32,349 bases of DNA, from positions 1 to 32,349 of the forward strand of contig JAJYLJ010000001.1 in assembly GCA_021787835.1 (NCBI GenBank), given 5' to 3'. Positions 1,441 to 20,051 of the stretch are shown one piece after another. Source of the stretch: Deltaproteobacteria bacterium (GTDB lineage Bacteria > Desulfobacterota > Dissulfuribacteria > Dissulfuribacterales > Sh68). The notes under the pieces were generated by a model that was not told the DNA's origin, searched no databases, and saw only the letters and a list, made by a program, of their open reading frames with translations. The translations under genes and the position numbers were made by a program. Within the stretch, counting starts at the first letter, position 1, and each line of letters begins with the position of its first letter.

Positions 1441-2634
1441 TCAGTGGTCTCCGGGGCCGCCTCCTCCGCCGGGGCCGCCGCCGCCACCACCGCCGCCACC
1501 GCCGCTTACTGGATAAACGGTTATGGACAGGGTCTTGGATGACTGGCGCGAACGGCTGTCAGTGACAGAAAAGGTGACAGGATATGTGCCATCCTTCGTA
1601 GGCGTTCCGGATACAACACCAGTATTGGCATCCAAACTTAAGCCATGCGGCAGCGGCGAGCCTAATGACCAAATATATGGAGGCTTTCCGCCTGTGGCGC
1701 TCATGGTAGTGGTTGGATACAGTTGATCAACGGTCCCGTAAGAGAGAAATTCAGTGGTGATGACCGGCGGGTTCGGGTTAACTGTTATGGTCAAGGTCTT
1801 TGAAGTGCTTTTCGGGCTGATATCATTGTCCTGAACCTGAACTGTAAAGCTATAACTGCCGGCCTGCGCGGGGGTTCCCGAGATGCACCCGCAAGGGTCT
1901 GAAGATGAGCAAGAGGCCGCGCCGCACGTACCTGATGTCAGATTCTGCAATTGCAGACCCGGCGGCAGAGACGACCCTGGCAATAAAGACCAGGCATATG
2001 GTTTTATGCCGTCCGTGGCCCCAAGAGGCACGCCTGACGAGGAGGCGGCCGGATACGTTATCTCTTCCACGCCGGTCGGGAGGCTGTCTGTGGTTATGCT
2101 GAAGGCGTTGCACACCTGCTGTCTGAGCTGATCTATGTCATCATACATGACCACATCGTCGTAGCCTGCGTTAGGGTCTTGGGTACAGGCCACCTTCGCG
2201 CCCTCGACGCTTATATTGAAAGGGGATGCGCTTCCGGTCTGATTGCAGAGATTCTCTCCGTCGGAAAATATGATGAATGCGACCGTTGTTTTTGTCTGCA
2301 TCGATCCACTGCTTGCGTCATTTACGGTCAAATACGAAGCGGACGGCCTCTGTGTGCACAGATCCGTAACGCCGCTTATCGCGAAATATTCCAATTTTCC
2401 GCCGTAAGAGTCCGTGGCGTCTACGCCAAGCACGTCCAAGCTTGGCGGAAGGCTCTTGTGCGCCATTGCGTAGCCAAGTATTGACTCGTATGCGGTCTTG
2501 ACTGTCTCCCTGGTCTCCATCAGCTTTGATCTCTTTACAAGCGGACCGATCATGCCGGCGCCGATGCCGAGAAGCAGACCTATCAGCACAAGCACGATCG
2601 CCATTTCGACAAGAGTGAAACCTTTCCGTCTCAT
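1441..2634 (-). CDS. Type IV (MSHA-like) prepilin with two He_PIG-type Ig-like repeats and a polyglycine tail
   Basis: The N-terminus is a textbook class III prepilin signal: a short basic leader MRRKG, predicted cleavage after Gly5, then FTLVE with Phe as residue +1 and Glu at +5, and a hydrophobic helix to about residue 33. After a pilin-like region of about 180 residues come two putative Ig-fold repeats of the He_PIG type (about 190-286 and 290-374). Each carries the typical second half, ISGTPAQAGSYSFTV and VSGTPTKDGTYPVTF. The first has a Cys-rich insertion (four Cys at about 237-249). Residues 378-395 are almost all Gly with two Pro. At 397 residues it is two to three times the size of a usual major pilin. 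It ends the pilus operon and is the only pilin visible. The start is supported by AAGG 7 nt upstream. A large minor or adhesive pilin is as plausible as a structural pilin. Confidence 0.9.
   Translation of the reverse strand: MRRKGFTLVEMAIVLVLIGLLLGIGAGMIGPLVKRSKLMETRETVKTAYESILGYAMAHKSLPPSLDVLGVDATDSYGGKLEYFAISGVTDLCTQRPSASYLTVNDASSGSMQTKTTVAFIIFSDGENLCNQTGSASPFNISVEGAKVACTQDPNAGYDDVVMYDDIDQLRQQVCNAFSITTDSLPTGVEEITYPAASSSGVPLGATDGIKPYAWSLLPGSSLPPGLQLQNLTSGTCGAASCSSSDPCGCISGTPAQAGSYSFTVQVQDNDISPKSTSKTLTITVNPNPPVITTEFLSYGTVDQLYPTTTMSATGGKPPYIWSLGSPLPHGLSLDANTGVVSGTPTKDGTYPVTFSVTDSRSRQSSKTLSITVYPVSGGGGGGGGGGPGGGGGPGDH
1450..1503 (-). repeat. Low-complexity GGN repeat encoding the polyglycine tail of the pilin
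   Basis: The stretch encodes ten Gly codons, Pro, five Gly, Pro and Gly. On the plus strand it reads as a run of CCG/CCA/CCT triplets. Such G-rich triplet tracts are prone to slippage, which would change tail length or frame. The tail is only two residues from the stop codon. Confidence 0.85.
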
Positions 2635-2682: not shown

Positions 2683-3621
2683 TCAACGCATCTGATCCAA
2701 CCGTTCAAGCGCAAGCCCCAGATTGAATTTAATGTCTTCATCTTCAGGCGCCTTCTTAAGGGCCTCTTTCAATACATCGGCGGCCTCCTGTGGTCTTCCG
2801 ACGGCAAGAAGCGCAGCCCCTAGATTATTGGCCACCCGCACATCCCCGGTCTTGAGCCAAACGGCCCTGTAAATGACGGCGGCCTCCTCAAAGTCGCCTG
2901 ATCTCCTGAGGTCTTCGGCCCGCTGAAGGTCCCGTTCCGTGGATATGAAAGATCCAATACCGCCAGACACAACTTCTGACCGGCCGGCGTCTTTAAGCGC
3001 GCCACCCTTAGCGGACCCGGCCTCTCTAACGGTCACGGTCTTTTTCTTATCCTGCGCTGTTGCATCATATCCTTTATTACGTTCTTTGCTACCCGCCCCG
3101 CCCTCCTTAACCAGCCCCGGCGGACTTACCGGCGCGGCGTCAACCTTATGCCTTGCGGCGGAGGATGGATGCAAACCCACGGGCCCGCCTTCCTTGCCGG
3201 GAGCGCCGGCCCCGGCGGTCTTTGCAATGGACACGATGGAGGCGTTGATAGCGCTCCGTCTGGTCACGGCCAAGGTATCGGACGGCCCTGCGGCTGCATT
3301 TTCTTTCCCTGGCGCAGGATTAGGTGCCGGAACGGGCTTTTGCAAGACATGGGCGGGCGCGGCCTTATCCAGCCTTGCAAAATCAGTCCTGGCCTGCGAT
3401 ACGGCCTTTACCGCCTTATATCTCCAAGAACCCAGTGTCAAAACGAAGAAAGAGCCAAAAACAACAAAAAAAGCCGCTACAATGGCCGGCAAGACCCAGG
3501 GGCGCCAGCCGCCCGGCGGCCATTTTCTTTCCCCGCGCCTTTCTGTCGCATAATCGACCGGGCTTCTGACCGGCGGCTGGCGCCCATCCAATTCCTTCAG
3601 CGCATCAAAGAGCTTACTCAT
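2683..3621 (-). CDS. mshN: Inner-membrane TPR protein, MshN-like pilus biogenesis component
   Basis: A cytoplasmic N-terminus opening with MSKLFDALKELDGR is followed by one transmembrane helix at about residues 43-64. A long Ala/Gly/Lys/Pro-rich, probably disordered linker comes next, then tetratricopeptide repeats over roughly the last 80 residues (about 232-312), with GDFEEAAVIYRAVW and GRPQEAADVLKEALK as helices. This architecture and the position next to the secretin match MshN of the MSHA pilus system. I chose the ATG at 3621, which overlaps the secretin stop codon as TGATG; a TTG one codon upstream is also possible. TPR proteins in these systems are thought to bridge the inner-membrane platform and the secretin. 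The exact role is not settled, and the linker is not conserved enough to recognise. Confidence 0.75.
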   Translation of the reverse strand: MSKLFDALKELDGRQPPVRSPVDYATERRGERKWPPGGWRPWVLPAIVAAFFVVFGSFFVLTLGSWRYKAVKAVSQARTDFARLDKAAPAHVLQKPVPAPNPAPGKENAAAGPSDTLAVTRRSAINASIVSIAKTAGAGAPGKEGGPVGLHPSSAARHKVDAAPVSPPGLVKEGGAGSKERNKGYDATAQDKKKTVTVREAGSAKGGALKDAGRSEVVSGGIGSFISTERDLQRAEDLRRSGDFEEAAVIYRAVWLKTGDVRVANNLGAALLAVGRPQEAADVLKEALKKAPEDEDIKFNLGLALERLDQMR

Positions 3622-5231
3622 CAAATGACCCGCACACGCATAAGGATCACAAGTTCGGCCCTGTCACCCTTCTTGACATTATACTTGAATGCAGGCCCTA
3701 TCAGAGGCAACCTGTCAAGGAACGGAAGGCTCGTGGTGGTGTTCTCTTTGGTATCCTGGATGAGTCCGCCCAGTATGGCCATGTCTCCAGACTTGACCCT
3801 GAGCACGGTCGACTCCTCGCTCAGATTCACCTTGGGGAAGGTGTAACGGTTGCCGCCTGTAAACTCCCGCTCCTCAAGGGAGACCAGGTCTGTCTTTATC
3901 GGGACTATGTGGATCGTCACAAAACCGTCACCTTCTATGACCGGAGTCACACCAAGGAGCACGCCGTCAAAAATGGAGCCTATCTCGGCCGTGGTAGTGG
4001 AGGTGGTTATTCCGCCGGTCCCCCCTGATGTCAGATTCTGCTGAAGGCTCTTTAAATATGACACGGATTGGCCAACACTTATCATGGCCGACTGGCCGTT
4101 CATCACCTTAAGCCTCGGGTTTGAAAGGGTTTTGACCTGCCCGTATTGCTTAAGGGCGTGAAGCACCGTTGTTACGTCGTAATAACGCTGGGACAGGTGT
4201 ATGCCGTAAAAAGAGCCGGTGTCTTGAATCGTGTTCGTTATGGCGAGGCTTGCACCCGCAGGATTTATGGCGCTTCTGCTCAAGGTCGCCTCGAGATTGC
4301 GCCAATCGACGCCAAGCTCATGATCAGATGTAAGCTTCACCTCCAGAAGGGTTGCATCTATCAATACCTGGCGTCTGTATTTCGAGCGCAGGGTCTTTAA
4401 ATAGGCGCCTATCTCGTCCACAATCCTTGGACGGGCACGCACCAACAGGGTACCCGTCTGCCTGTTGAGAAAAAAAGACCCGTTCTTGCCTATCCTGTCC
4501 TTAATCGAATCTTCAAGCTGTTTATAGATATCCGTAACCGTATCAGAGGCCTGGCCGCTGACCTGAAAACTGCCTGTAAGCGGCGCGCTGCCGCTTAAAC
4601 CGCCGCTTCCCGAACCACCTCCTCCGCCGCCGGCGCCTGAACCGGCGGAAGAAGCGCCGCCGCCTGAAGAAACGCCGGAGGAACTGCTCACAGAGCTGAC
4701 GCCGCCCAAAACGTCCCCGCCAACATTAAAATTTGACTGGCGCACAGAGCCAAGAAAATCAAGATCAAAGACCTTTTGCGCCATCGCATTCACGTATATA
4801 GTGCCGTCTGACTCATGCCACGATATATCAAGCGCCTGGCATACGGAATCAAGCACATCCCTGACCGGCCTTTCATGGTATTCGGCGGTGAGGGATCTGG
4901 CGCCGCCAAGCGCGGCATCAACCCCCGGGTCGATGACAAGATTGAGCCCTGCCGCAAGGGCGAGGGACTGCAATATATTCTTGTAATCCTCTCCGGCGAA
5001 TGACAGGCTTACCAGTTGCGTATCGACCGGAGAAAGCGATTTGAATCTGGGTTTCTGGTCATCCGCCAGCGGACCTTTTGCCCCGGCGGAGTCAATGCCG
5101 GGCATGGCCATAATGTCGGCCCGGGGTTGAACCGGCACCGCATTTATATCAGACCTGAGCGCGCAGCCGCAAAGCAAAATAGAGGCGGCGCAAGCAAGAA
5201 ATATTCTATGTACCTGGCATGTCTTCCGCAT
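3621..5231 (-). CDS. mshL: Outer-membrane secretin of the MSHA pilus system (MshL/PilQ/GspD family)
   Basis: This should form the gated outer-membrane channel of the pilus or secretion machine. The N-terminus is a lipoprotein-like signal with Cys21-Gly-Cys23. Residues 73-147 form a secretin/TonB short N-terminal domain (LSFAGEDYKNILQSL...), followed by a Gly/Ser-rich linker at about 177-216. An N1-type segment (about 235-285) with TGTLLVRARPRIVDEI comes next, and then the secretin core to residue 536. The core holds GLIQDTKENTTTSLPFLDRL and ends in ELVILMRVRVI, typical of secretins. Length 536 fits MshL. The ATG at 5231 overlaps the upstream gene's stop by one base, so translation is probably coupled. 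The long Gly/Ser linker is unusual and lies where GspD/PilQ proteins have additional N-domains. Confidence 0.93.
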   Translation of the reverse strand: MRKTCQVHRIFLACAASILLCGCALRSDINAVPVQPRADIMAMPGIDSAGAKGPLADDQKPRFKSLSPVDTQLVSLSFAGEDYKNILQSLALAAGLNLVIDPGVDAALGGARSLTAEYHERPVRDVLDSVCQALDISWHESDGTIYVNAMAQKVFDLDFLGSVRQSNFNVGGDVLGGVSSVSSSSGVSSGGGASSAGSGAGGGGGGSGSGGLSGSAPLTGSFQVSGQASDTVTDIYKQLEDSIKDRIGKNGSFFLNRQTGTLLVRARPRIVDEIGAYLKTLRSKYRRQVLIDATLLEVKLTSDHELGVDWRNLEATLSRSAINPAGASLAITNTIQDTGSFYGIHLSQRYYDVTTVLHALKQYGQVKTLSNPRLKVMNGQSAMISVGQSVSYLKSLQQNLTSGGTGGITTSTTTAEIGSIFDGVLLGVTPVIEGDGFVTIHIVPIKTDLVSLEEREFTGGNRYTFPKVNLSEESTVLRVKSGDMAILGGLIQDTKENTTTSLPFLDRLPLIGPAFKYNVKKGDRAELVILMRVRVI

Positions 5232-5749
5232 CAGGTCTCTCCACTGTTTTCCGCAGCACCTTCTGGCTTTAAGATAATGTCTTCCTTCTGACCAGGCCTG
5301 AGAAGGCCCTCGCCAGCGTCTGTCTTGATCAGGGCGCCGGCTTCGTCTATTTTTCTGACGACAAAACCATGGCCCCCGGCCCCTTCTTTAAAGAGCTTCC
5401 CGTTTATCCTGCAATAACGTCCAGCGCTTGCGACCACAACCAGACTGAGGGAAAGCTCCTTCAGGACAGGCGGCGGGACGACCTTTTCAGCGGTCTTTTT
5501 GATGCGCCCGAATGGGTCGTTGGCGCCGCCCGCGGATTCGCCGTACGACAGAGACGGCGGCGCGCCTTTGTATTTTTCATCCAATGCCGTCAAGTTGAGC
5601 GTAAAAGGCGCTGTCTTTCCTGGCAAGAAGGACAGGCAGCCGCTGGACAGGCGCCCAAGCCATACGGCGGATATGCTGGCTACAAGCAGACACAAAACGG
5701 GCAACGACACCAATACCCAATCCCTTTGTTTCATGAATTGCGCAGGCAT
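5231..5749 (-). CDS. mshK: Small inner-membrane pilus protein, MshK / PilP-GspC-like
   Basis: A 172-residue protein with one N-terminal transmembrane helix (about residues 12-31) and a periplasmic region. Its last 80 residues (LSLVVVASAGRYCRINGKLF ... LLRPGQKEDIILKP) resemble the small beta domain of MshK, PilP and GspC proteins. These link the inner-membrane platform to the secretin. Its position directly upstream of the secretin gene supports that role. The ATG at 5749 has a good GGAGGGG ribosome site 8 nt upstream inside the previous gene, giving a 19-nt overlap. A second in-frame ATG at 5734 makes an ATGA overlap but has no ribosome site. Sequence similarity in this family is low, so the assignment rests on architecture and gene order. 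Confidence 0.7.
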   Translation of the reverse strand: MPAQFMKQRDWVLVSLPVLCLLVASISAVWLGRLSSGCLSFLPGKTAPFTLNLTALDEKYKGAPPSLSYGESAGGANDPFGRIKKTAEKVVPPPVLKELSLSLVVVASAGRYCRINGKLFKEGAGGHGFVVRKIDEAGALIKTDAGEGLLRPGQKEDIILKPEGAAENSGET

Positions 5750-6225
5750 AGAAAATACCCCTCCACATGGAATACGAGCCCTTCATTAGACCTCTGTGAA
5801 GCAGCGCCACCCCCCTCCGGGTTTGGCCGCAAACCGCCCGCCTCCTGCTTATCTTGTCCGGAATGGGCGGCGGAAAAAGACTCAAGGGCGAATATCCTGT
5901 CCCCAAGATAAAGATTATAGAGCCTTTGAATAAGCTCTTCAAAGCTTATATTCAACCATTTCATGTCGGCCCTCTCCCAAACAAGATGACTGGCGGCGGC
6001 CCGCTTACCAGGCATATATCTGGCCTTAAGGGTCTGAAACAGGCGGATATTGGCCTCGGATATATTTAATACGGCCGCTTCGCTGTCAAGGGCAGAGGAT
6101 GCCAGCCTCAAGCCTTGCCCTTCATATAAAGCATTGGTCAGAAACCATAGGCTTGCGGCAAAAAACATGACCGCCGCAAGCTCCAATGCTAGCTCCTTGT
6201 AAGACGGCACCGGAACGCCATGCAT
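5731..6225 (-). CDS. mshJ: Inner-membrane pilus assembly protein, MshJ / PilO-like
   Basis: A 164-residue protein with one transmembrane helix near the N-terminus (LALELAAVMFFAASLWFLTN) and a periplasmic region carrying amphipathic helical segments, the plan of PilO, GspM and MshJ proteins. It lies between the PilM/PilN-like gene and the PilP-like gene, where PilO or MshJ is expected. I took the ATG at 6225, which overlaps the stop of the upstream gene as TGATG. An in-frame TTG at 6258 would add 11 residues but lacks a ribosome site. Function is inferred: it should pair with the PilN-like part of MshI to form the inner-membrane alignment complex. Confidence 0.65.
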   Translation of the reverse strand: MHGVPVPSYKELALELAAVMFFAASLWFLTNALYEGQGLRLASSALDSEAAVLNISEANIRLFQTLKARYMPGKRAAASHLVWERADMKWLNISFEELIQRLYNLYLGDRIFALESFSAAHSGQDKQEAGGLRPNPEGGGAASQRSNEGLVFHVEGYFLCLRNS

Positions 6226-7712
6226 CACGAGCGCCCATCCTTTACGGAAAGACGGCAAGACAAACGGCCTTGCCCGGATTTCTCGTCATAATCGAGTTTT
6301 ACATCCCGCATAATGAAACGCCTGCACAGCGCGGCGGCGGCCTCCTCAAGCCTCTGCCTGGACTGCGCGTAGCCCCCTGTTGTAACGAGCTCCAAAGACA
6401 AATCAAAAGGCCGGTCCAAAAGCTCTTCAGGGATAGGCCTTGACGATGCTCCCGTCCCTTCGGACCCCATGGCTTGCGGCTGCTGGCCGGATGGCCCGCC
6501 ATTGTTCTGCGCCATGGGACCGCCTGCGGCGGGAGCGGGATGGGTATTTTGCACATGCCTGTCGGCCTCAAGACTTGAAATGCTCACGCCGTCCGGCAGG
6601 GATCTTGAAACGGCCAAAAGCATAGAATCAAGCCTGGGCTGGCTCCTGTATCTTGACCAAAGGCCGGCAAGCCTCTCGACCGCCTCTTTTTCCTGACCGT
6701 CTGGAAGCATTTTCTGCAAACGCCCCCTCTGCACAGTTATGGCCCTGCCGCGCGCGGTTACATAGGCCTCCAGCGGCATATTTTCATTCTTGATATATGC
6801 CCCGACGCCGAAAAGCACCACGGCTCCAGCCATGGCAGCCATGGCCATCCACCGCGATATATCCTGAATGCGCCACGAAAGCCGCCAGGAAGCCGGAACA
6901 AAATCAAAGGCCCTGTCTACAAAATAAGACCCGAAAAGCGCTGGATATCTCGCGGCCAAGGACGGGTCATCCATGTCGAAAAATGCGCTCCATTCAGGCA
7001 GCCAAAGCCTGTAACCACCGACCATCTCAGGGCAGACGCCTGCGTTTGGACCAATGGCGGTTATGGTTTTAACATCAACATGGTGGATGCGGCGTACGGC
7101 CTGCAACACTATCTCGAACGTGTGCGCGAGCATCGGCTCTTCGAGCCGTCCGTTCGTATCAAACGGCACAAATTGCATATAAAGAGGCGCTCCCCCTTGC
7201 CCGACGATTATCAAAAGGATGTCCTGGAAAAAACATGCGGCAAGCACCGGCTCCGGCGTAAGTACACCCATCAGCCCGCTGATGGCGGCTGGCGCGGGAG
7301 AAATGGACACCGTCCTGACACCTTGCCCAAGGCCCATCATAATAAAGGGGTCGATCTCTTCTTGCGGCATACATATAATAGAATAAAGCGTCCGCCCGTC
7401 GCGCTCGGCGGTAGGCCTCATGCAATAGCTGAAACCAGACGCTCCGTCCCGCAAAAGACCGCTTTGCCTCATACGCTCGGTTATCTGGAGTCTCAAAATC
7501 TCACGCCCGGTCTTGGGGAATTCCTCGTTGAGCAGATACATCTTGCGGGAAAAAACCGCCAGCCGCACGTTGCCCTTTTTTACAGGAGTGGCGCCCCTTG
7601 TCTCTTCAACACCCCCGAATACCGGCCTATCCCCCGCCTTAAGCACCGGGACGCGCAGCCATGTATCATTTTTATCCCAGGGCTCGGCCAGCCAAAGACC
7701 TATCCGCTTCAT
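6225..7712 (-). CDS. mshI: PilM-PilN-like inner-membrane pilus protein (MshI)
   Basis: A 495-residue protein with a cytoplasmic N-terminal half (about 1-285) in the position of PilM/GspL. It has one transmembrane helix at about 287-307 (MAMAAMAGAVVLFGVGAYI) and a periplasmic C-terminal part with a PilN-like coiled region (ARGRAITVQRGRLQKML) and a ferredoxin-like end. A Gln/Gly/Pro-rich insertion lies near residues 410-440. The fused PilM-PilN plan is that of MshI. The frame is open for 30 codons further upstream, but the ATG at 7712 overlaps the stop of the ATPase gene as ATGA. The extra sequence lies inside that gene and lacks support, so I use 7712. In the machine this protein should connect the cytoplasmic ATPase to the PilO/PilP-like periplasmic proteins. 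Confidence 0.78.
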   Translation of the reverse strand: MKRIGLWLAEPWDKNDTWLRVPVLKAGDRPVFGGVEETRGATPVKKGNVRLAVFSRKMYLLNEEFPKTGREILRLQITERMRQSGLLRDGASGFSYCMRPTAERDGRTLYSIICMPQEEIDPFIMMGLGQGVRTVSISPAPAAISGLMGVLTPEPVLAACFFQDILLIIVGQGGAPLYMQFVPFDTNGRLEEPMLAHTFEIVLQAVRRIHHVDVKTITAIGPNAGVCPEMVGGYRLWLPEWSAFFDMDDPSLAARYPALFGSYFVDRAFDFVPASWRLSWRIQDISRWMAMAAMAGAVVLFGVGAYIKNENMPLEAYVTARGRAITVQRGRLQKMLPDGQEKEAVERLAGLWSRYRSQPRLDSMLLAVSRSLPDGVSISSLEADRHVQNTHPAPAAGGPMAQNNGGPSGQQPQAMGSEGTGASSRPIPEELLDRPFDLSLELVTTGGYAQSRQRLEEAAAALCRRFIMRDVKLDYDEKSGQGRLSCRLSVKDGRS

Positions 7713-8641
7713 GGCCTTATGACCTTGAATATCGTCCAGATAAACATCATGAGCAAAAAACAACCGGAGGCCAGGATCATGGCCTTCTGGTGCCATCCCC
7801 ACCTAAGATGCGTCATTTCAGGGATGGGCAGGGTCTCCTGCGCCACTTTTATGTCTTCGTCATATATCATGTGCCGACCCCGCGAACTCGCTATCAAAAA
7901 GGCCCTGTCCATGATCTTGTTTATAAGGCGCGGTATGCCGTAACTGGCCCGGTAAAGACGTGAAAGGGCCCTGGGCGCAAGTGTTATATCGGCCCTTCCC
8001 ACCTTTGCGAACCTAAAATTTATATACGCACCCATTTCCTGTCTTGTGAAGGGCCGCAGTTCCTCCCTTACGACAATGCGCTGGGCTAGCTGCCCAAGCT
8101 GGGGGGATTGCAAGATTACATCCAGCTCCGGCTGCCCTATCAGAAGTATCTGCAAGAGTTTGCGCCTGTCAGTTTCGATGTTTGAAAGGAGCCTCAACTG
8201 CTCAATGGTATCGAGCGGCAGGTTTTGCGCCTCGTCCACCACGATAAACAACTCCTTGCCCTTTGAGGCAAGATCGAGCACTGCGGCCTGAAATTGCTTG
8301 AGCAGCAGGCCCAAGTCGTCTCCATCTCCATCATACGGGCAACCCATCTCATCAAGTATGAGCCTCAGAAGGCCCGATGGGTTTACGGTCGGACTGACCA
8401 CCACGGCAGGGACCTTGTCTGGCGCAAGTCCTTCCAGGATAAGACGCAGTATAAGTGTCTTGCCTGTGCCGGCCGGACCTATAAGCACCATGAAGCCCTC
8501 GCCTCTTTCTATGGCGAACTTTAGCACCTCCTTCGCCGCGATATGCGGGGCCGCCGGAAAGAAAAAGTCAGGGTCTGGCGAAAGTCTGAACGGGGCGTCC
8601 TTGAGACCGAAATAGCCTATGTAATCAGGATAAGCCGCCAA
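7709..8641 (-). CDS. mshM: AAA ATPase of the ExeA/MshM family
   Basis: The start YFGLKDAPFRLSPDPDFFF is typical of ExeA/GspA/MshM proteins. Numbered from the upstream TTG at 8647, Walker A is GPAGTGKT at residues 57-64 and Walker B is LFIVVDEAQ with Asp138-Glu139. A sensor/arginine-finger region and a lid follow. A C-terminal transmembrane helix (ILASGCFLLMMFIWTIF) anchors the end of the protein. ExeA drives secretin insertion in Aeromonas together with ExeB; MshM is the counterpart in MSHA operons. The periplasmic peptidoglycan-binding domain of ExeA is absent, as usual for MshM. Two in-frame TTG codons, 8647 and 8641, could be the start. I prefer 8641 because GAGAGG is 8 nt upstream of it and only 2 nt upstream of the other. 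Confidence 0.9.
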   Translation of the reverse strand: MAAYPDYIGYFGLKDAPFRLSPDPDFFFPAAPHIAAKEVLKFAIERGEGFMVLIGPAGTGKTLILRLILEGLAPDKVPAVVVSPTVNPSGLLRLILDEMGCPYDGDGDDLGLLLKQFQAAVLDLASKGKELFIVVDEAQNLPLDTIEQLRLLSNIETDRRKLLQILLIGQPELDVILQSPQLGQLAQRIVVREELRPFTRQEMGAYINFRFAKVGRADITLAPRALSRLYRASYGIPRLINKIMDRAFLIASSRGRHMIYDEDIKVAQETLPIPEMTHLRWGWHQKAMILASGCFLLMMFIWTIFKVIRP

Positions 8642-8668
8642 AGGCAAAACCTCTCTCCAAACAAGGAA

Positions 8669-9871
8669 TCAATGCAGCCTGGTTATGATATCATAAATAG
8701 GCCCAAGCAGTCCAAGGGCTATGATCAAAAATATTAAGCCGGCAAATACTATAATGATAGGCTCGATAACCTTGGACATCGTATCAATAAACTTATTTAC
8801 CTTGGAACGGTAATGTTTGGCAAGCAGGGCTAGCTGATCCGGAAGGCCTCCGGTCTGTTCTCCGGCCGAGATCATGCGAAGGACAAACGGCTCGAAGAAA
8901 TCGACCCTTGAAAAGGATTCAAAAATGCTCTCGCCGGCCGTGATATCAGCCCTGATACCGCCTATCCCTTTTTTAAGGACCTGATTAGTTACCGATGCCT
9001 CCATAAACTCCAGGCCTTTGACAAAATTTATCCCAGCCGATGTAAGAACCGCCATATATTCAAAAAAGAAGGCCAATTGTGATGATTTTAACACATCACC
9101 TATCAAGGGGGAGCGCAGCCACGACAAATCCCACAGGTATTTCATGCGTTCGTTTTTGGCGGCTATTATATAAAATATAACGGCAACCACTGGGACTAAA
9201 ATGGCTGCCGGCCACCATCTATTGAATATCTCCACCGTCTTTATGAGGATCCTCGTTGCAAGCGGCAGGTCCTTTATGCCCATGTCTTTAAATAATTTCA
9301 ATATCTGCGGAAGCACGTAGATCATCCAGAAGGCGAGCGCCCCCGCCATTGCCGTCAGCACAAACGACGGATAGAGCAGGGCCTTTTTTGTATTCGAAAC
9401 GATCTCTTCTATCCGTTCGAGATGGGCCGCCGCGTCATCGAGCATCCTGTCAAGGTTGCCGGTCTCCTCGCCTATACTCACAAGCGTAATGAGAAGCCCT
9501 GAAAAGTGCCTGCGGTTCGCCTCCATGGCCGAAGATAAGAGCTGGCCGCCGTCAAGCCGCCTGAGGACATCGACAAGGACGTGCCTCAATGTCTTGATGC
9601 CCGGGCTTCTTGCCATATCGTCGATCGCCTGCCTTAAAGAGATGCCGCCCCTTACGAGCAAGGCCAGATTCCTGAAAAACTCGGCCATCAAGGTGCGCTT
9701 GACCTTACCGCCGGCAAAAGAACTCCATTTTATATATCTCCGGCGGTAATCAACGAGGACAAGACCCCTTGCCCCAAGCGTTTCAAACAGCCCCTCAAGA
9801 GACGGAAACTCCCCCTCGTCTTTTACCGGCACACCCGCACTGTCTATGGCTTTATATGAAAAAAACGGCAT
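8669..9871 (-). CDS. mshG: Inner-membrane platform protein, GspF/PilC/MshG family
   Basis: A 400-residue polytopic protein with the duplicated T2SSF domain. The first copy spans about residues 64-190, with FFRNLALLVRGGISLRQAI and the motif SIGEETGNLDRMLDDAA. The second spans about 265-390, with FFEYMAVLTSAGINFVKGL and SAGEQTGGLPDQLALLA. Three main hydrophobic segments are visible, at about 160-190, 220-240 and 370-395. The length is exactly family-typical. Its ATG directly follows the TAA of the ATPase gene with no gap, so translation is probably coupled. In the machine it is the inner-membrane rotor or platform that the assembly ATPase acts on to polymerise pilins. Confidence 0.95.
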   Translation of the reverse strand: MPFFSYKAIDSAGVPVKDEGEFPSLEGLFETLGARGLVLVDYRRRYIKWSSFAGGKVKRTLMAEFFRNLALLVRGGISLRQAIDDMARSPGIKTLRHVLVDVLRRLDGGQLLSSAMEANRRHFSGLLITLVSIGEETGNLDRMLDDAAAHLERIEEIVSNTKKALLYPSFVLTAMAGALAFWMIYVLPQILKLFKDMGIKDLPLATRILIKTVEIFNRWWPAAILVPVVAVIFYIIAAKNERMKYLWDLSWLRSPLIGDVLKSSQLAFFFEYMAVLTSAGINFVKGLEFMEASVTNQVLKKGIGGIRADITAGESIFESFSRVDFFEPFVLRMISAGEQTGGLPDQLALLAKHYRSKVNKFIDTMSKVIEPIIIVFAGLIFLIIALGLLGPIYDIITRLH

Positions 9872-11518
9872 TTAATAGATAACCCGCTGTATCTCGTCAA
9901 GGCTTGTTTCGCCTCTCTTAACCTTTGTCAGGCCGATATCCATAAGGTCCGCAAAGCCCTCTTTTCTGGCCTGATCATCTATATCTCCAAGCGGGGCGTC
10001 CTCGGCCACAAGCCTCAATATTTCCTTGGTGAACGGCAATATCTCAGCCACAACCATACGGCCTGAATAACCTGTCTGCCTGCAATGCTGGCATCCGACC
10101 GGCCTGAAATATTCCCCGTCCGGAGACAATTTATAACGCTCGATGAGTTCAGATGAAGGCAGATATTTTTCCTTGCAGTCAGGGCACAGCCTTCTAACCA
10201 GACGCTGTGCTGCTATGCCGACAAGTGAACTTGCAAGCAGAAACGGGGAGACGCCAAGATCTCTGAGCCTGGCGATCGCGCCCATGGCCGTATTCGCGTG
10301 CAGCGTCGAAAGCACAAGATGCCCGGTGAGCGCCGCCCTTACGGCAAAGGACGCGGTCTCATCGTCTCTTATCTCACCGACCAGTATCACATCGGGATCC
10401 TGGCGGAGGAACGTCCTGATGGCAGACGCAAAATCATAGCCCGCCTTTTCATTTACTTGCGTCTGCCTTATCATCATAAATTCGTATTCTATCGGGTCTT
10501 CCACCGTAATTATGTTCTTGCCTATGACATCTTGAATCCTGAGGGCTGCATACAGGGTCGTGGTCTTACCGCTTCCAGTGGGACCCGTTAGGAGCACCAT
10601 GCCGTGAGGATGTGAAAAAAGCTGTTTCATAACTTGCATCTGGTCATGCTCAAAACCAAGGTCGGAAAGACCCAGCACCTGGCCGCCTCTTGAAGGCAGG
10701 ATGCGGAGCACCATGTTTTCACCGAAATTGGTCCGTAAGGAGGAGACCCTTATATCAAAAAAGTCTCCCAAGAACTCGAAGGACATGCGCCCATCCTGGG
10801 GTTTCCTCTGCTCTGCTATATCCATACCCGACCTGACCTTTATGTTTGTCGCGAGACGGCTATGAAAAACCGCGGGAAACACATAGGCGGATGACATTAT
10901 GCCGTCCACCCTGAACATCACCCTGCTCGAAACACTGCTTGGGGTTATGTGGAGGTCAGTGGCCCTCAGGCTTACAGCGGAAGAAAGAAGCATATCCACG
11001 AGCTTGGCTATGTCTATATCAATGCTTGGATTGAGCCTCGCCCTTTCAACAATGCCGTCTATCTCGTCGGCGACAGGGTGTTCCAGGAGATAATAAAAGC
11101 GCTCCACCAGTTTCTTGAGCTCGTTTCTCCCGCCGACATGCGCAGTGGCGGGCAGGCCCGTAAACCGGAATATGATCTCTGAATATGTGGGGTCATAGGG
11201 GTCTGTAACGGCTATATGGAGGCTGTTGCCCTTAACGAAAAGCGGCAGGACCAGATTCTGTCTTGCAACCTGCGCCGGAAGCCTTGAAAGGACATTGGGA
11301 TCAGGTATGAAGACTCTGAGATCAATAAAGGGCATGCCGCTTTGCGCGGCCAAGGCCTTTGCTATGTCGGAATCGCTTACAATGCCAAGCCTTATAAGAC
11401 ATTCACCGAGCTTTTCGCCTGTAGCCTCCTGTTCCCTGACGGCGAATTGTATATACGCCTCACTTACAAGGTTCGCGTCTTTGAGTAATTTGCCGATCTG
11501 TGGGGCAGCGCTTGCCAT
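9872..11518 (-). CDS. mshE: Pilus assembly ATPase, MshE/PilB/GspE family
   Basis: The cytoplasmic motor that powers pilin polymerisation. Residues 1-150 form an MshEN/GspE N-terminal domain, which in MshE of Vibrio binds cyclic di-GMP; ligand binding here is inference only. The ATPase core has Walker A GPTGSGKT at residues 312-319, an Asp box around 339-346 (VEDPIEYEF), Walker B DPDVILVGEIRDDET at about 374-388 and a His box GHLVLSTLHANTA at about 399-411. A zinc tetracysteine follows: Cys445, Cys448, Cys476, Cys479. Length 548 is normal. It is first in the operon. The ATG at 11518 is preceded by AAAGG 9 nt upstream. No second, retraction-type ATPase (PilT) is nearby. Confidence 0.96.
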   Translation of the reverse strand: MASAAPQIGKLLKDANLVSEAYIQFAVREQEATGEKLGECLIRLGIVSDSDIAKALAAQSGMPFIDLRVFIPDPNVLSRLPAQVARQNLVLPLFVKGNSLHIAVTDPYDPTYSEIIFRFTGLPATAHVGGRNELKKLVERFYYLLEHPVADEIDGIVERARLNPSIDIDIAKLVDMLLSSAVSLRATDLHITPSSVSSRVMFRVDGIMSSAYVFPAVFHSRLATNIKVRSGMDIAEQRKPQDGRMSFEFLGDFFDIRVSSLRTNFGENMVLRILPSRGGQVLGLSDLGFEHDQMQVMKQLFSHPHGMVLLTGPTGSGKTTTLYAALRIQDVIGKNIITVEDPIEYEFMMIRQTQVNEKAGYDFASAIRTFLRQDPDVILVGEIRDDETASFAVRAALTGHLVLSTLHANTAMGAIARLRDLGVSPFLLASSLVGIAAQRLVRRLCPDCKEKYLPSSELIERYKLSPDGEYFRPVGCQHCRQTGYSGRMVVAEILPFTKEILRLVAEDAPLGDIDDQARKEGFADLMDIGLTKVKRGETSLDEIQRVIY

Positions 11519-15106: not shown

Positions 15107-15544
15107 CTATGCCCGCACCATCTCGTCCATATCCTTTAAAACGGCATCCAATATCCCGTTTATAAATGCGCTCGACTCGTCGCTCCCAAACTTCTTTGCA
15201 AGCTCCACGGCCTCATTTATGGCCACCTTGGGCGGTATGTCCCTGCGGTAATAGAGCTCAAACACCCCCAGCCTCAAGATGTTCCTGTCAACCAGGGCAA
15301 GCCGGCTTACCCTCCAGCCCTTTGTCTTTTCTCTAATAAAGAGATCCAGATCGTCTCTGTGTTCAAGCACGCCGGAAAGCCATTCAAATACAAATTCAAG
15401 GACCGGGTCGTCCTCCTGAAATTCCCTCATGGCCAGTTCATGCACGTACCCATCCACGAGTTCCCTTACGCCTTTCTTTGCATCCCATTCATACTGATAG
15501 AGAAGCTGCAAGACGATCTCGCGGCCCTGCCTTCTAATAACCAT
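15107..15544 (-). CDS. nusB: Transcription antitermination protein NusB
   Basis: RNA-binding protein that acts with NusE/S10 in rRNA antitermination. At 145 residues it has the all-helical NusB fold, with the typical opening RRQGREIVLQLLYQYEWD and the ending RDIPPKVAINEAVELAKKFG ... SSAFINGILDAVLK. The ATG directly follows the ribH stop as TAGATG, and leuS follows with the same junction. The ribH-nusB pairing is widespread in bacteria. Confidence 0.97.
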   Translation of the reverse strand: MVIRRQGREIVLQLLYQYEWDAKKGVRELVDGYVHELAMREFQEDDPVLEFVFEWLSGVLEHRDDLDLFIREKTKGWRVSRLALVDRNILRLGVFELYYRRDIPPKVAINEAVELAKKFGSDESSAFINGILDAVLKDMDEMVRA

Positions 15545-16015
15545 CTAGGCGTCTAACCCCTTTAACAGGTTCGCCATCTCCACCACCGCAAGGGCCGAAT
15601 CCCAACCCTTGTTGCCGGCCTTGGTCCCTGCCCTTTCAATGGCCTGTTCGATACTCTCAGTGGTGAGTATGCCGAAACCCACGGGACAATCCGTCTGAAT
15701 GGCGATCTGGGCCACGCCCTTCGCCGCCTCTGCCGCCACATATTCAAAGTGGGGGGTGGCCCCCCTTATTATGCAGCCAAGACATAAGACACCGTCGTAA
15801 CGGCCGCTGGCGGCAAGCCTCTTTGCCGCAAGAGGTATCTCGAATGCGCCCGGTACCCAGGTGATATCTATATCGTCTTCCTGGGCCCCGTGCCTTATGA
15901 GCGCATCCATGGCCCCGCTTAAGAGCTTACCCGATATAAATTCATTGAATCTGGCAATCACAATCCCGACATGAAGCCCGTGGGCGTTAAGATGACCTTC
16001 GTAAACCCGCGCCAT
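15545..16015 (-). CDS. ribH: 6,7-dimethyl-8-ribityllumazine synthase
   Basis: Penultimate enzyme of riboflavin synthesis: it condenses 5-amino-6-ribitylaminouracil with 3,4-dihydroxybutanone 4-phosphate. Family motifs are present: [12 protein letters not shown] near the start, [32 protein letters not shown], and [10 protein letters not shown] with the catalytic His in the region of TPHFEY. The ATG at 16015 gives 156 residues and is preceded by GGGGGAGA. The frame is open to 16036, which would add seven residues and overlap ribBA, but that start is less well supported. It lies between ribBA and nusB in the rib operon. Confidence 0.97.
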
Positions 16016-16028
16016 TTCTCTCCCCCTG

Positions 16029-17240
16029 TTATTCAACCTCGAGAAGATGACCCATCTTCTCTTTTTTACACTTCAGATAATTTATGTTTTGCTCATGAGG
16101 CGCTATCTCTATCGGGACCCTCTCCACAACCTTAAGCCCGTAGCCCTCGAGGCCAACAATCTTTTTTGGATTATTTGTCATCAGCTTCATACGCCTTACT
16201 CCAAGGTCCCGGAGTATCTGGGCCCCTATGCCGTAATCCCTGAGATCGGCCTTGAATCCAAGTTCATAGTTCGCCTCGACTGTATCCCTGCCCTGATCCT
16301 GCAGACAATAGGCCTTGAGCTTGTTGATAAGCCCTATGCCGCGGCCCTCCTGCCTCATGTAAAGTATGACCCCGCGGCCCTCGCGGGCGATCCTGTGCAT
16401 GGCCGTCTGAAGTTGCGGACCACAATCGCACCTCAAGGACCCGAAGACATCGCCGGTCAGACATTCTGAATGGACGCGCACCAATATGTCTTCATCAGAC
16501 ATTATATCGCCGTCGCCAAGCACAAGCGCCAAGTGGTGCTTCTGATCGAGCAGGCTGCTATACGCGATAAGCCTCCAGTCCCCGCCGAACCTGGAGGGGA
16601 TCCTCGTCTCAACCTCTCTTTTTACCAGGCTCTCGATACGCAGACGATATGCTATCAAATCCGCCACCGTGGCTATCTTCAGGCCGTGCCCCCTGGCGAA
16701 GACTTCAAGGTCAGGCATCCTCGCCATCGTGCCGTCATCCTTCATTATCTCGCATATTACGCCGGCCGGTTTAAGGCCGGCAAGACGGGCGAGATCCACA
16801 GAGCCCTCGGTCTGGCCAGCCCTTACAAGCACGCCTCCGTCCCTTGCCCGCAGCGGGAAGACGTGGCCAGGGGTGGCTATGTCCGCCGGGCCGGCGCCGT
16901 CCGCAATGGCGGTAAGTATGGTAGTGGCCCTGTCCTGGGCCGAGATGCCTGTCGTAACGCCTCTTGCGGCCTCTATTGAAACCGTAAAGGCCGTCCCGAA
17001 TTTGGAGGTATTACTTGATACCATCATGGGAAGCTTAAGGCTTTCTACCTTTTGACCGGTAAGCGCAAGACAGACAAGCCCGCGGCCGTACTTGGCCATA
17101 AAATTTATGGCCTCTGGCGTAACCTTCTCGGCGGCCATGGTAAGATCACCCTCGTTCTCACGGTCCTCATCATCAACGAGGATGATCATCTTGCCCGCCT
17201 TGATATCCTCTAAAACCTCTTCAATTGAAGACACTGACAT
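16029..17240 (-). CDS. ribBA: Bifunctional 3,4-dihydroxy-2-butanone 4-phosphate synthase / GTP cyclohydrolase II
   Basis: It makes both precursors of lumazine: DHBP from ribulose 5-phosphate (N-terminal half) and the pyrimidine from GTP (C-terminal half). The DHBP synthase part (about 1-205) has [10 protein letters not shown] near residue 23, [14 protein letters not shown] and [11 protein letters not shown]. The cyclohydrolase II part has [18 protein letters not shown], with the three zinc-binding Cys, and [19 protein letters not shown] followed by DTVEAN. Both sets of catalytic residues seem intact, so neither half looks degenerate. An in-frame GTG at 17249 is an alternative start, but AGGG lies about 10 nt before the ATG at 17240 and only a base or two before the GTG. 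Confidence 0.97.
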
Positions 17241-17282
17241 CTCTATCACACCCTTTTACGGAGTTAGCCGCAAACATCTTTT

Positions 17283-17942
17283 TTATATGAAACCATGACG
17301 GGCCAGGAACGCCCGGTCAAACCCATCGTCTTTTTCAGCTTCACCTTCCGGCCTCTTGGGCCTGAGTAATTTTTCAATATACTTCCCAATCAGGTCAAGC
17401 TCAATATTGACCTTGTCACCGGCCTTCCTCCTGCCAAGCGTGGTAATGTCCGCCGTATGAGGGATCATGGAGACAGAAAGACGCCCCGGGCCGCAACTGT
17501 TGACCGTGAGGCTTACGCCGTCAAGTGCTATGGAGCCCTTTTCTATAATATATCTGTCAAAATCCAAGGGCACGGCCACTGAAATAAGGACAAATCGGCC
17601 AAGAGGCCTCTTTTCCAGTATACGGCCCACACCGTCAATATGCCCACTCACAAGATGCCCGCCGAGCCTGCCTGAAAGACGTAGCGCACGCTCCAGGTTT
17701 ACCACGTCCCCTGCCTTCAGATCCCCGAGATTTGACCTTGAGATGGTCTCTGGCGATACATCGGCCTTAAAGGAACCAGACAATATGGATGCGGCCGTTA
17801 GGCATGCGCCGTTTACAGCTATGCTCTCACCTTCTTCCGGATCGTCCAGGACGAAACCGGGCGCGATCTCAAGCACAAGGCCGCTGTCCTTCCGGGTAAT
17901 CTGCCTTATCGCTCCAAGGCCCTCAACTATGCCAGTAAACAT
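17283..17942 (-). CDS. ribE: Riboflavin synthase alpha subunit
   Basis: Dismutates two molecules of dimethyl-ribityllumazine into riboflavin and the ribitylaminouracil substrate. Two lumazine-binding repeats are seen: the first starts [12 protein letters not shown], and the second is announced by [14 protein letters not shown] near residues 95-110. NGACLTA and DGVSLTVN are the paired ligand-binding motifs. At 219 residues it is slightly long at the C-terminus but normal. It starts one base after the ribD stop codon, so translation is probably coupled. The same gene is called ribC or ribE depending on nomenclature. Confidence 0.97.
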
Positions 17943-17943
17943 C

Positions 17944-19083
17944 CTAGGCCCGCCAAAATCTGTCCAGGTCTGTCACGACGCCGTGAACCAGCCAGTTGTC
18001 GCCTATCTTTCTGTGGCTTATCATCTTAAGCCTTGGTGCGCCGTCTAGATGTCCGGCGCCGTGCCCGCCTATCGAGCAAGGGGCGTCCGTGCCGCCTATC
18101 ACAACCGGCGCATAGAAAAAAAAGGCCTCATCAACCAGCCCCTGATCCCAAAAAGTACCATGTATAGTAGCCCCACCCTCAACCAGCAACGACTGTATCC
18201 CGGACTCGCCCATCCTTGCAAGGACATCACCCATACGAGGCCTTCCATGTCTGTCGGGCGGCATGAGCCAGACCTCTGCGCCGGAGGCCTCCAGCGCCTC
18301 TTTCTTTTCAAGGCGGACGCCAGCTTCAGAGCCTACCACCACGGCTCTGCCGGTCTCGCCAAGCACCCTGCTATTGATACCTATCTCAAGCCTGCTATCC
18401 AGCACAAATCTTATCGGATCCTTGGCCTGGCCCCAGGCCGTTTTTTCTTTTATTCTGCATGTAAGCCGCGGATCATCGAGCAAGACGGTATTTTTCCCAA
18501 CAAGTATCGCATCGCTTGCGGCCCTGAGGGTGTGGCCCAGCATACGCGCGCGCGCACTGGTGATCCACTTCGACTCGCCAGTCCTGGTGGCCACCCGCCC
18601 GTCAATGCTCAACGCCGCTTTCGTCCTCACCCATGGAAGCCCTGTCGTTACATGCTTTGCAAAAGGGGCTATCAATAGGCGGCATCTGTCCTCCATGCAG
18701 CCCGTCTGGACTTCCAGGCCGCGGCTTCGCAGGAATCCGGCCCCTCCGCCCGCAATATTCGGGTTCGGGTCCATTGCCCCGACCACAACCCGGCTGACCC
18801 CGGCCTCGACAATCGCCTTGGTGCAAGGCGGAGTGCGGCCATAGTGGTTGCAAGGCTCAAGGGTCACATAGATAGTTGAACCCTCGGCCTTTTCACCGGC
18901 CGAGCTTATTGCATGGACCTCAGCATGCGCCGTCCCCGTCTTTTGATGGAACCCCTCGCCGGCTATCACACCGTCCCTTACCACAACAGCTCCTACAGCC
19001 GGGTTCGGGCTTGTCCGCCCGAGGCCCCTTTCCGCAAGCCTCAAGGCCCTCGCCATAAATCTTATGTCCTGCCGTGTCCACAT
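17944..19083 (-). CDS. ribD: Bifunctional diaminohydroxyphosphoribosylaminopyrimidine deaminase / 5-amino-6-ribosylaminouracil reductase
   Basis: Carries out the second and third steps of riboflavin synthesis from GTP. The N-terminal deaminase has TSPNPAVGAVVV, the zinc motif HAEVHAI, and EPCNHYGRTPPCTKAI with the other two zinc Cys. The C-terminal reductase begins at about residue 145 (PWVRTKAALSIDGRVA) and has SLLVEGGATIHG, the NADPH-site signature. 379 residues is full length. The ATG at 19083 lies 7 nt after the nrdR stop. I see no FMN riboswitch upstream; the rib genes appear to be read through from the nrdR side. Confidence 0.97.
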   Translation of the reverse strand: MWTRQDIRFMARALRLAERGLGRTSPNPAVGAVVVRDGVIAGEGFHQKTGTAHAEVHAISSAGEKAEGSTIYVTLEPCNHYGRTPPCTKAIVEAGVSRVVVGAMDPNPNIAGGGAGFLRSRGLEVQTGCMEDRCRLLIAPFAKHVTTGLPWVRTKAALSIDGRVATRTGESKWITSARARMLGHTLRAASDAILVGKNTVLLDDPRLTCRIKEKTAWGQAKDPIRFVLDSRLEIGINSRVLGETGRAVVVGSEAGVRLEKKEALEASGAEVWLMPPDRHGRPRMGDVLARMGESGIQSLLVEGGATIHGTFWDQGLVDEAFFFYAPVVIGGTDAPCSIGGHGAGHLDGAPRLKMISHRKIGDNWLVHGVVTDLDRFWRA

Positions 19084-19090
19084 ATCCTTC

Positions 19091-19564
19091 TCATGAACCC
19101 TGGCCAGAGCCCCCCTCGTTGATCATCTCAAGGAGCTGTTTCATAAACTCGTTGAGGTCCTTGAACTGCTTATAAACTGAAGCGAACCTAACGTAGGCGA
19201 CGTCATCCCATTTCTTGAGCTGGGCCATGACCCTTTCCCCAATGAAACTGCTGCCGACCTCGCGTTCGCCGCGCTCTTGAAGCTCTTTTTCGAGCTCATT
19301 TACAAAGGCCTCGATTTGGTCCATGCTTATGGGGCGCTTTTCACACGCCTTTAGCATCCCGTCTATCACCTTTCTGCGGTCAAAGGGCTCCCGTCTTCCG
19401 TCTTTTTTGACCACCATGGGCCTGAACTCCTCAACCCTTTCATAGGTGGTGAAACGCTGGCCGCAGGATATGCACTCCCTGCGCCTCCTTATCGAACGGC
19501 CATCCCTGCCGAGCCTGGAATCTATGACCCTTGAATCAGAGGTGCTGCAAAATGGACATTTCAT
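19091..19564 (-). CDS. nrdR: Transcriptional repressor NrdR
   Basis: Represses ribonucleotide reductase genes in response to ATP/dATP. The protein starts [19 protein letters not shown], with the zinc ribbon completed by [12 protein letters not shown], and continues with an ATP-cone domain ([19 protein letters not shown]). From the ATG at 19564 the length is 157, the family norm. The frame stays open 45 codons further upstream, but that part overlaps the deaminase gene in another frame and has no family similarity, so I trim it. Next to a dCMP-deaminase-family gene it belongs to a small nucleotide-metabolism group. I did not find ribonucleotide reductase genes in the window. Confidence 0.97.
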
Positions 19565-19568
19565 GAAA

Positions 19569-20051
19569 TCAATCTTTGTTTGATGACATCTTGGCGGCTC
19601 CGGCAAGCTGAATGAGCTCAACACCCGCTTCTTCAAGCATACTGCGCGACATGCCGTCTGCATACCCCTCATCATAATAAATAGAAAGTATTCCGGCATT
19701 TATAAGCATTTTAGTACAGATTATGCAAGGGAGATTTGTGCAGTAAAGGATGGATCCGGCTACCGGGGTGCCGTAATAAGCCGCCTGAACTATGACATTC
19801 TGCTCGGCGTGCAAGGCCCGACACAACTCATGTCTCTGGCCTGAGGGAACCTTTAATTCGTCTCTTAGACACCCTATCTCAAGACAGTGTTTAAGCCCGC
19901 TTGGAGCGCCGTTATATCCGGTACTCAATATACGCCTGTCTTTTACGAGGACAGCGCCGACCTTTCTTCTAAGACACGTCGAGCGCCCGGAAACAAGCCT
20001 TGCTATTGATATGAAATAGGCATCCCAGGATGGTCTTGTATCTCTTTCCAC
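19569..20051 (-). CDS. dCMP deaminase family protein (ComEB-like cytidine/deoxycytidylate deaminase)
   Basis: Zinc-dependent deaminase fold with HAEQN (His81, Glu83) and PCIIC (Cys109, Cys112) as the zinc and catalytic motifs. [20 protein letters not shown] near residues 31-50 and an inserted Cys/His segment (about 55-80) match deoxycytidylate deaminases and the ComEB group. The likely role is conversion of dCMP to dUMP for dTMP synthesis. The start is GTG at 20051. It lies 47 nt after glyA and 4 nt before nrdR; SHMT, which supplies one-carbon units for thymidylate, makes a sensible neighbour. Confidence 0.93.

Follow-up and report, generated by a model that had tools for sequence, protein, structure and literature searches.

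Among modular pilins, the 15 most frequent architectures include He_PIG (PF05345) as one of their additional domains (PMC8179133). The modular plan is illustrated by PilB of Streptococcus sanguinis, whose class III pilin module is joined to additional non-pilin sequence, a vWA adhesin module that has been shown to bind ligands (PMC8179133). In the Staphylococcus aureus adhesin SraP, tandem cadherin-like modules form a calcium-stiffened stem carrying a lectin (PMC4047093). The MSHA pilus of Vibrio cholerae is encoded by a single operon with MshE, MshG, MshM, MshL and MshN-like genes and an MshEN domain on the ATPase (PMC9815625, PMC4624765).

The window analysed here, a whole stretch of 32,349 nucleotides, encodes a large pilin with immunoglobulin-like domains (hereafter the Ig pilin) that resembles each of these systems in part. 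Like PilB, it fuses a class III pilin module to extra non-pilin sequence, but it has two He_PIG stalk domains, no distal module and a diderm-type MSHA-like operon. That operon shares the V. cholerae gene set and the MshEN domain, but its only pilin gene, the last one, encodes a large Ig pilin; no small MshA-like pilin was found with profile A2 in the window or in its own assembly, which at 88% completeness means little. As in SraP, two cadherin-like modules stand in tandem, and both sequence and structure searches matched them to SraP; those of SraP are the stem for an end module, but SraP is a cell-wall adhesin with its lectin on the N-terminal side (PMC4047093). We consider it likely, with a probability of roughly 70%, that the Ig pilin belongs to an MSHA-like type IVa pilus as a minor pilin of modular build, its Ig domains forming a stalk and its poly-Gly C terminus being a linker without a distal module.

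A large pilin at the end of an MSHA-like operon

The Ig pilin open reading frame extends from 2634 to 1441 on the minus strand and encodes 397 amino acids; the preliminary description had given the same coordinates, which hold, without stating the strand. It is the last gene of the pilus operon and the only pilin in the window (Table 1). The MshE, MshG, MshM-like, MshI/J/K-like, MshL and MshN-like genes 5′ of it identify the cluster, as judged from sequence, as that of an MSHA-like type IVa pilus: an MshL-type secretin is present together with MshE, MshG and MshM in one operon, and the secretin scores just above the TIGR02519 equivalog cut-off. On the other side, bacA follows the Ig pilin gene after 160 bp on the same strand, and a search of the intervening sequence for a terminator or promoter gave a signal close to the level of shuffled sequence.

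Table 1 Features of the Ig pilin gene and its operon in the window
Feature	Position	Strand	Basis
Poly-Gly tail VSG10PG5PGDH, residues 376-397	1444..1509	-	Translation; disordered in model; homologue linker position
Second He_PIG domain, residues about 287-375	1510..1776	-	Pfam, model; matches SraP cadherin-like module
First He_PIG (Ig/cadherin-like) domain, residues about 176-286	1777..2109	-	Pfam, model, alignment columns
Pilin head: helix residues 8-59 and globular domain	2110..2619	-	AlphaFold model, alignment A4
Prepilin leader MRRKG, cleavage after Gly5	2620..2634	-	Translation; N_methyl and TIGR02532 above cut-off
TPR protein, MshN-like	2683..3624	-	Pfam TPR, conserved operon position
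MshL secretin	3621..5231	-	TIGR02519, 252.9 bits against a cut-off of 250.2; Pfam Secretin
Small inner-membrane assembly protein, mshK position	5231..5749	-	Operon position, homologues; no Pfam family
Small inner-membrane assembly protein, mshJ position	5731..6258	-	Operon position, homologues
MshI-like assembly protein	6225..7802	-	Operon position, homologues; no Pfam family
MshM-like AAA ATPase	7709..8647	-	Pfam AAA_22, homologues
MshG platform protein	8669..9871	-	Pfam T2SSF
MshE extension ATPase with MshEN (c-di-GMP-binding) domain	9872..11518	-	Pfam T2SSE and MshEN, NF053729

Pilin head and Ig stalk

The Ig pilin begins with the class III prepilin signal MRRKG/FTLVE, a short basic leader ending in Gly with Phe at +1 and Glu at +5 of the cleavage site, and continues into a hydrophobic helix, the features of a type IV pilin. 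Pfam N_methyl matches residues 2-24 (E 3.7e-6, 26.7 bits against a cut-off of 21.2), and TIGR02532 also exceeds its cut-off in the leader region. Within the head, Cys93 is kept in all 14 rows of alignment A4, and Cys130 and Cys175 in most of them.

Two stretches of He_PIG follow (E 2e-19, above the curated cut-off; window positions 1780-2013 and 1516-1767), giving the protein an architecture listed in PMC8179133. An AlphaFold2 model, built with an alignment of 14 homologues, has a mean pLDDT of 89.5 and shows the helix (residues 8-59), followed by a globular head and two β-sandwich domains. Searched against the PDB with Foldseek, the model ranked SraP first and cadherins next, and a profile search of PDB sequences also returned the SraP cadherin-like fragment as its top match (E 7.4e-10). 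Pfam, the model and Foldseek thus all place the repeats among He_PIG or cadherin-like Ig β sandwiches. The canonical prepilin signal cleaved after Gly5, with Glu at +5, and the two Ig-type He_PIG repeats of the preliminary description were therefore both confirmed, the former by translation and Pfam, the latter by profile search and predicted fold.

Compared with the calcium ligands of SraP, the Ig pilin keeps three acidic positions in domain 1, D183, D208 and D269, which are largely conserved in the alignment columns of its homologues; one of the corresponding positions in domain 2 is, in our own reading of the alignment, occupied by Gly. Calcium may be bound at the acidic trio of domain 1.

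The poly-Gly tail occupies a linker position

The protein ends in VSGGGGGGGGGGPGGGGGPGDH: ten Gly, a Pro, five Gly and Pro-Gly-Asp-His before the stop, a tail of ten plus five Gly with a Pro spacer, as had been described. Its Gly tract is the sole run of at least eight GGN codons in the 2.03-Mb genome, and Gly makes up 9.3% of the Ig pilin outside the tail, so that chance does not explain it; nor is the tract a fresh homopolymer slip, because its codons are a mixture of GGC, GGT and GGA. In the AlphaFold2 model, the tail is disordered (pLDDT <50). A literature search for poly-Gly in type IV pilins gave nothing relevant.

In six homologues (L043, L053, L055, L097, L103 and L109), poly-Gly separates the stalk from another module or from a C-terminal segment. 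The tract precedes a Cys-rich Ig domain and a C-terminal cap in L053, L055 and L097, the cap in L103, another Cys-containing end in L109 and a short Cys-rich end in L043; poly-Ser occupies the linker position in L050, L051 and L052. Because the Gly run of the six homologues links their stalk to a distal module, the tail of the Ig pilin is, on this sequence comparison, most likely a linker deprived of its distal module, which would account for a striking feature in ordinary terms.

Alternatively, the tail could have a function of its own, for example by forming polyglycine-helix contacts that join fibres or by acting as a surface-binding brush. The length of the run, unique in the genome, would fit such a role, as would the mixed codons and two Pro spacers, which argue against recent slippage; moreover, homologue L102 likewise ends in a low-complexity Pro/Gly tail and L052 has a glycine-rich domain. 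We nevertheless consider an independent function unlikely, given that six homologues have the equivalent run as a linker at this location, that the tail is predicted to be disordered and that none of the other homologues seen here has a poly-Gly terminus. Of the earlier suggestion that the tail resembles attachment or flexible-linker segments, the linker part is thus supported and the special attachment device is not, the homologues having a Gly or Ser linker to another domain at this position.

As a separate observation, the MshL secretin (window 3621-5231) contains a Gly/Ser-rich insert too, which includes six consecutive Gly residues.

Homologues exchange their distal ends

Sequence searches (E 0.001) found homologues of the Ig pilin in 27 of 60 relatives, some through the pilin N terminus or the Ig part only; with the profile (E 1e-25), matches were obtained in 49 of the 395 phylum genomes, partly to Ig domains alone. 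Nine loci in a named genome collection come from records labelled Nitrospirae, Nitrospiraceae, Deltaproteobacteria and Desulfobulbus. Across the homologues, the pilin head and He_PIG stalk are conserved and the distal end is swapped: some homologues have a Cys-rich Ig domain with the cap there, others a glycine-rich domain or a lectin-like module, and some have no distal module at all.

The Cys-rich Ig domain and cap (YRVWNNTG...DR-stop) were located at L055:10042-10548, L053:9985-10491, L051:10033-10560 and L050:10342-10860. The region has no Pfam match in L055, L051 or L050, and its model is confident (pLDDT 95.5). The cap itself, a predicted β-rich domain ending in TDR or similar, is rare, with profile matches in 9 of 395 phylum genomes. 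It has no relatives among PDB sequences, and by fold it gave merely broad Ig-like matches, the best being the Aureispira hook protein GhpA (query TM 0.37); the cap appears to be an undescribed domain. The pilin homologue at L052:7857-9920 ends in a glycine-rich ALK_LTK_GRD domain. Homologous pilins from small genomes within the phylum (L098:706-2484 and L100:1459-3258) have ends similar to each other; that of L100, the one tested, shows weak similarity to legume lectins (E 9e-4). In L049, L056 and L095, the protein stops directly after the stalk. In L056 (8827-10285), the Ig pilin is immediately followed by another reading frame whose pilin-type start is similar, and the sequence there is partly N-masked.

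In a tree of pilin heads, the nearest neighbours of the Ig pilin are L051, which has a distal module, and L049, which has none. The module may have been lost in this lineage rather than never gained. The cap profile, run in six frames 3′ of the stop codon, found no remnant of it. The absence of a module could instead reflect an error in the draft assembly (2.03 Mb in 190 contigs, 88% complete), reads having collapsed in the GC-rich, repetitive GGC/GGT tract so that an existing distal module was missed. This we regard as quite improbable: the in-frame stop is followed by the 160-bp spacer and then by bacA on the same strand; a profile search of the 88% complete assembly found no cap elsewhere, just as no frame downstream holds a remnant; and L049 and L056 are without a distal module too.

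As a pilin with He_PIG domains, the Ig pilin is of a kind already known; the points of some interest, the interchange of distal ends and the undescribed cap domain, lie outside the window. Together the homologues add a coherent modular-pilin family, in which the pilin head and Ig stalk are conserved, the genes are tied to MSHA-like operons and the distal module is exchangeable. The series of cap, lectin-like, glycine-rich and missing ends offers a natural test of how type IV pili alter their adhesion targets.

Probable position of the Ig pilin in the filament

The preliminary description had taken the Ig pilin for the only pilin of a full assembly operon and proposed either an adhesive tip or a thick decorated fibre. 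The first statement is true of the window. However, the genome encodes six more N_methyl prepilins (Pfam) on two other contigs: C120 carries a PilA-like pilin and another small prepilin, and C73 carries four prepilin-type genes adjoining GspE/F-like genes. Among 18 homologue loci from the phylum set, msh assembly genes lie beside the Ig pilin homologue in 15, and a small pilin of about 190-240 residues is encoded near it in 13. In G006, such a small pilin directly follows the MshN-like gene, the place held by the Ig pilin in the window, and the Ig pilin of that genome lies elsewhere.

These neighbourhoods bear on whether the Ig pilin might itself be the main subunit, forming a thick fibre decorated with Ig domains throughout. 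Its status as sole pilin of the operon and the lack of an A2-type small pilin in the assembly would agree with this, yet we hold it to be very improbable, considering the small pilin near the same msh genes in most phylum loci, the arrangement in G006 and the PilA-like pilin on C120. A bulky 40-kDa subunit along the whole shaft would also be unusual packing. The small pilin is the likelier main subunit, and the thick fibre made of Ig pilin alone finds no support in relatives that pair the two proteins or in a genome with other pilins. Least probable is a main-subunit Ig pilin whose poly-Gly tail contacts neighbouring fibres or a surface, which if true would constitute a new type of type IV filament.

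The adhesive tip subunit, by comparison, is plausible for an Ig-like stalk on a pilin in an MSHA-type operon. By analogy with other modular pilins, which suggests the tip location, the Ig pilin is in all likelihood a minor pilin exposed at the tip, serving as an adhesin or as a stalk, and its function may be adhesive. As a minor pilin, its N-terminal module would be cleaved by prepilin peptidase and would pack at or near the filament tip, with the two He_PIG domains projecting outward as a stalk. The genome encodes a prepilin peptidase, and two PilT-like ATPase matches lie on contig C11. In relatives, the stalk carries the distal module through a Gly or Ser linker, and that module probably touches the ligand. 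In the organism of the window, the linker would persist as the disordered poly-Gly tail; with no distal module beyond it, contact would fall to the Ig domains or to another protein acting as partner.

Beyond the pilus operon, window positions 15107-20051 hold ordinary riboflavin genes together with nusB, nrdR and a deaminase-family gene.
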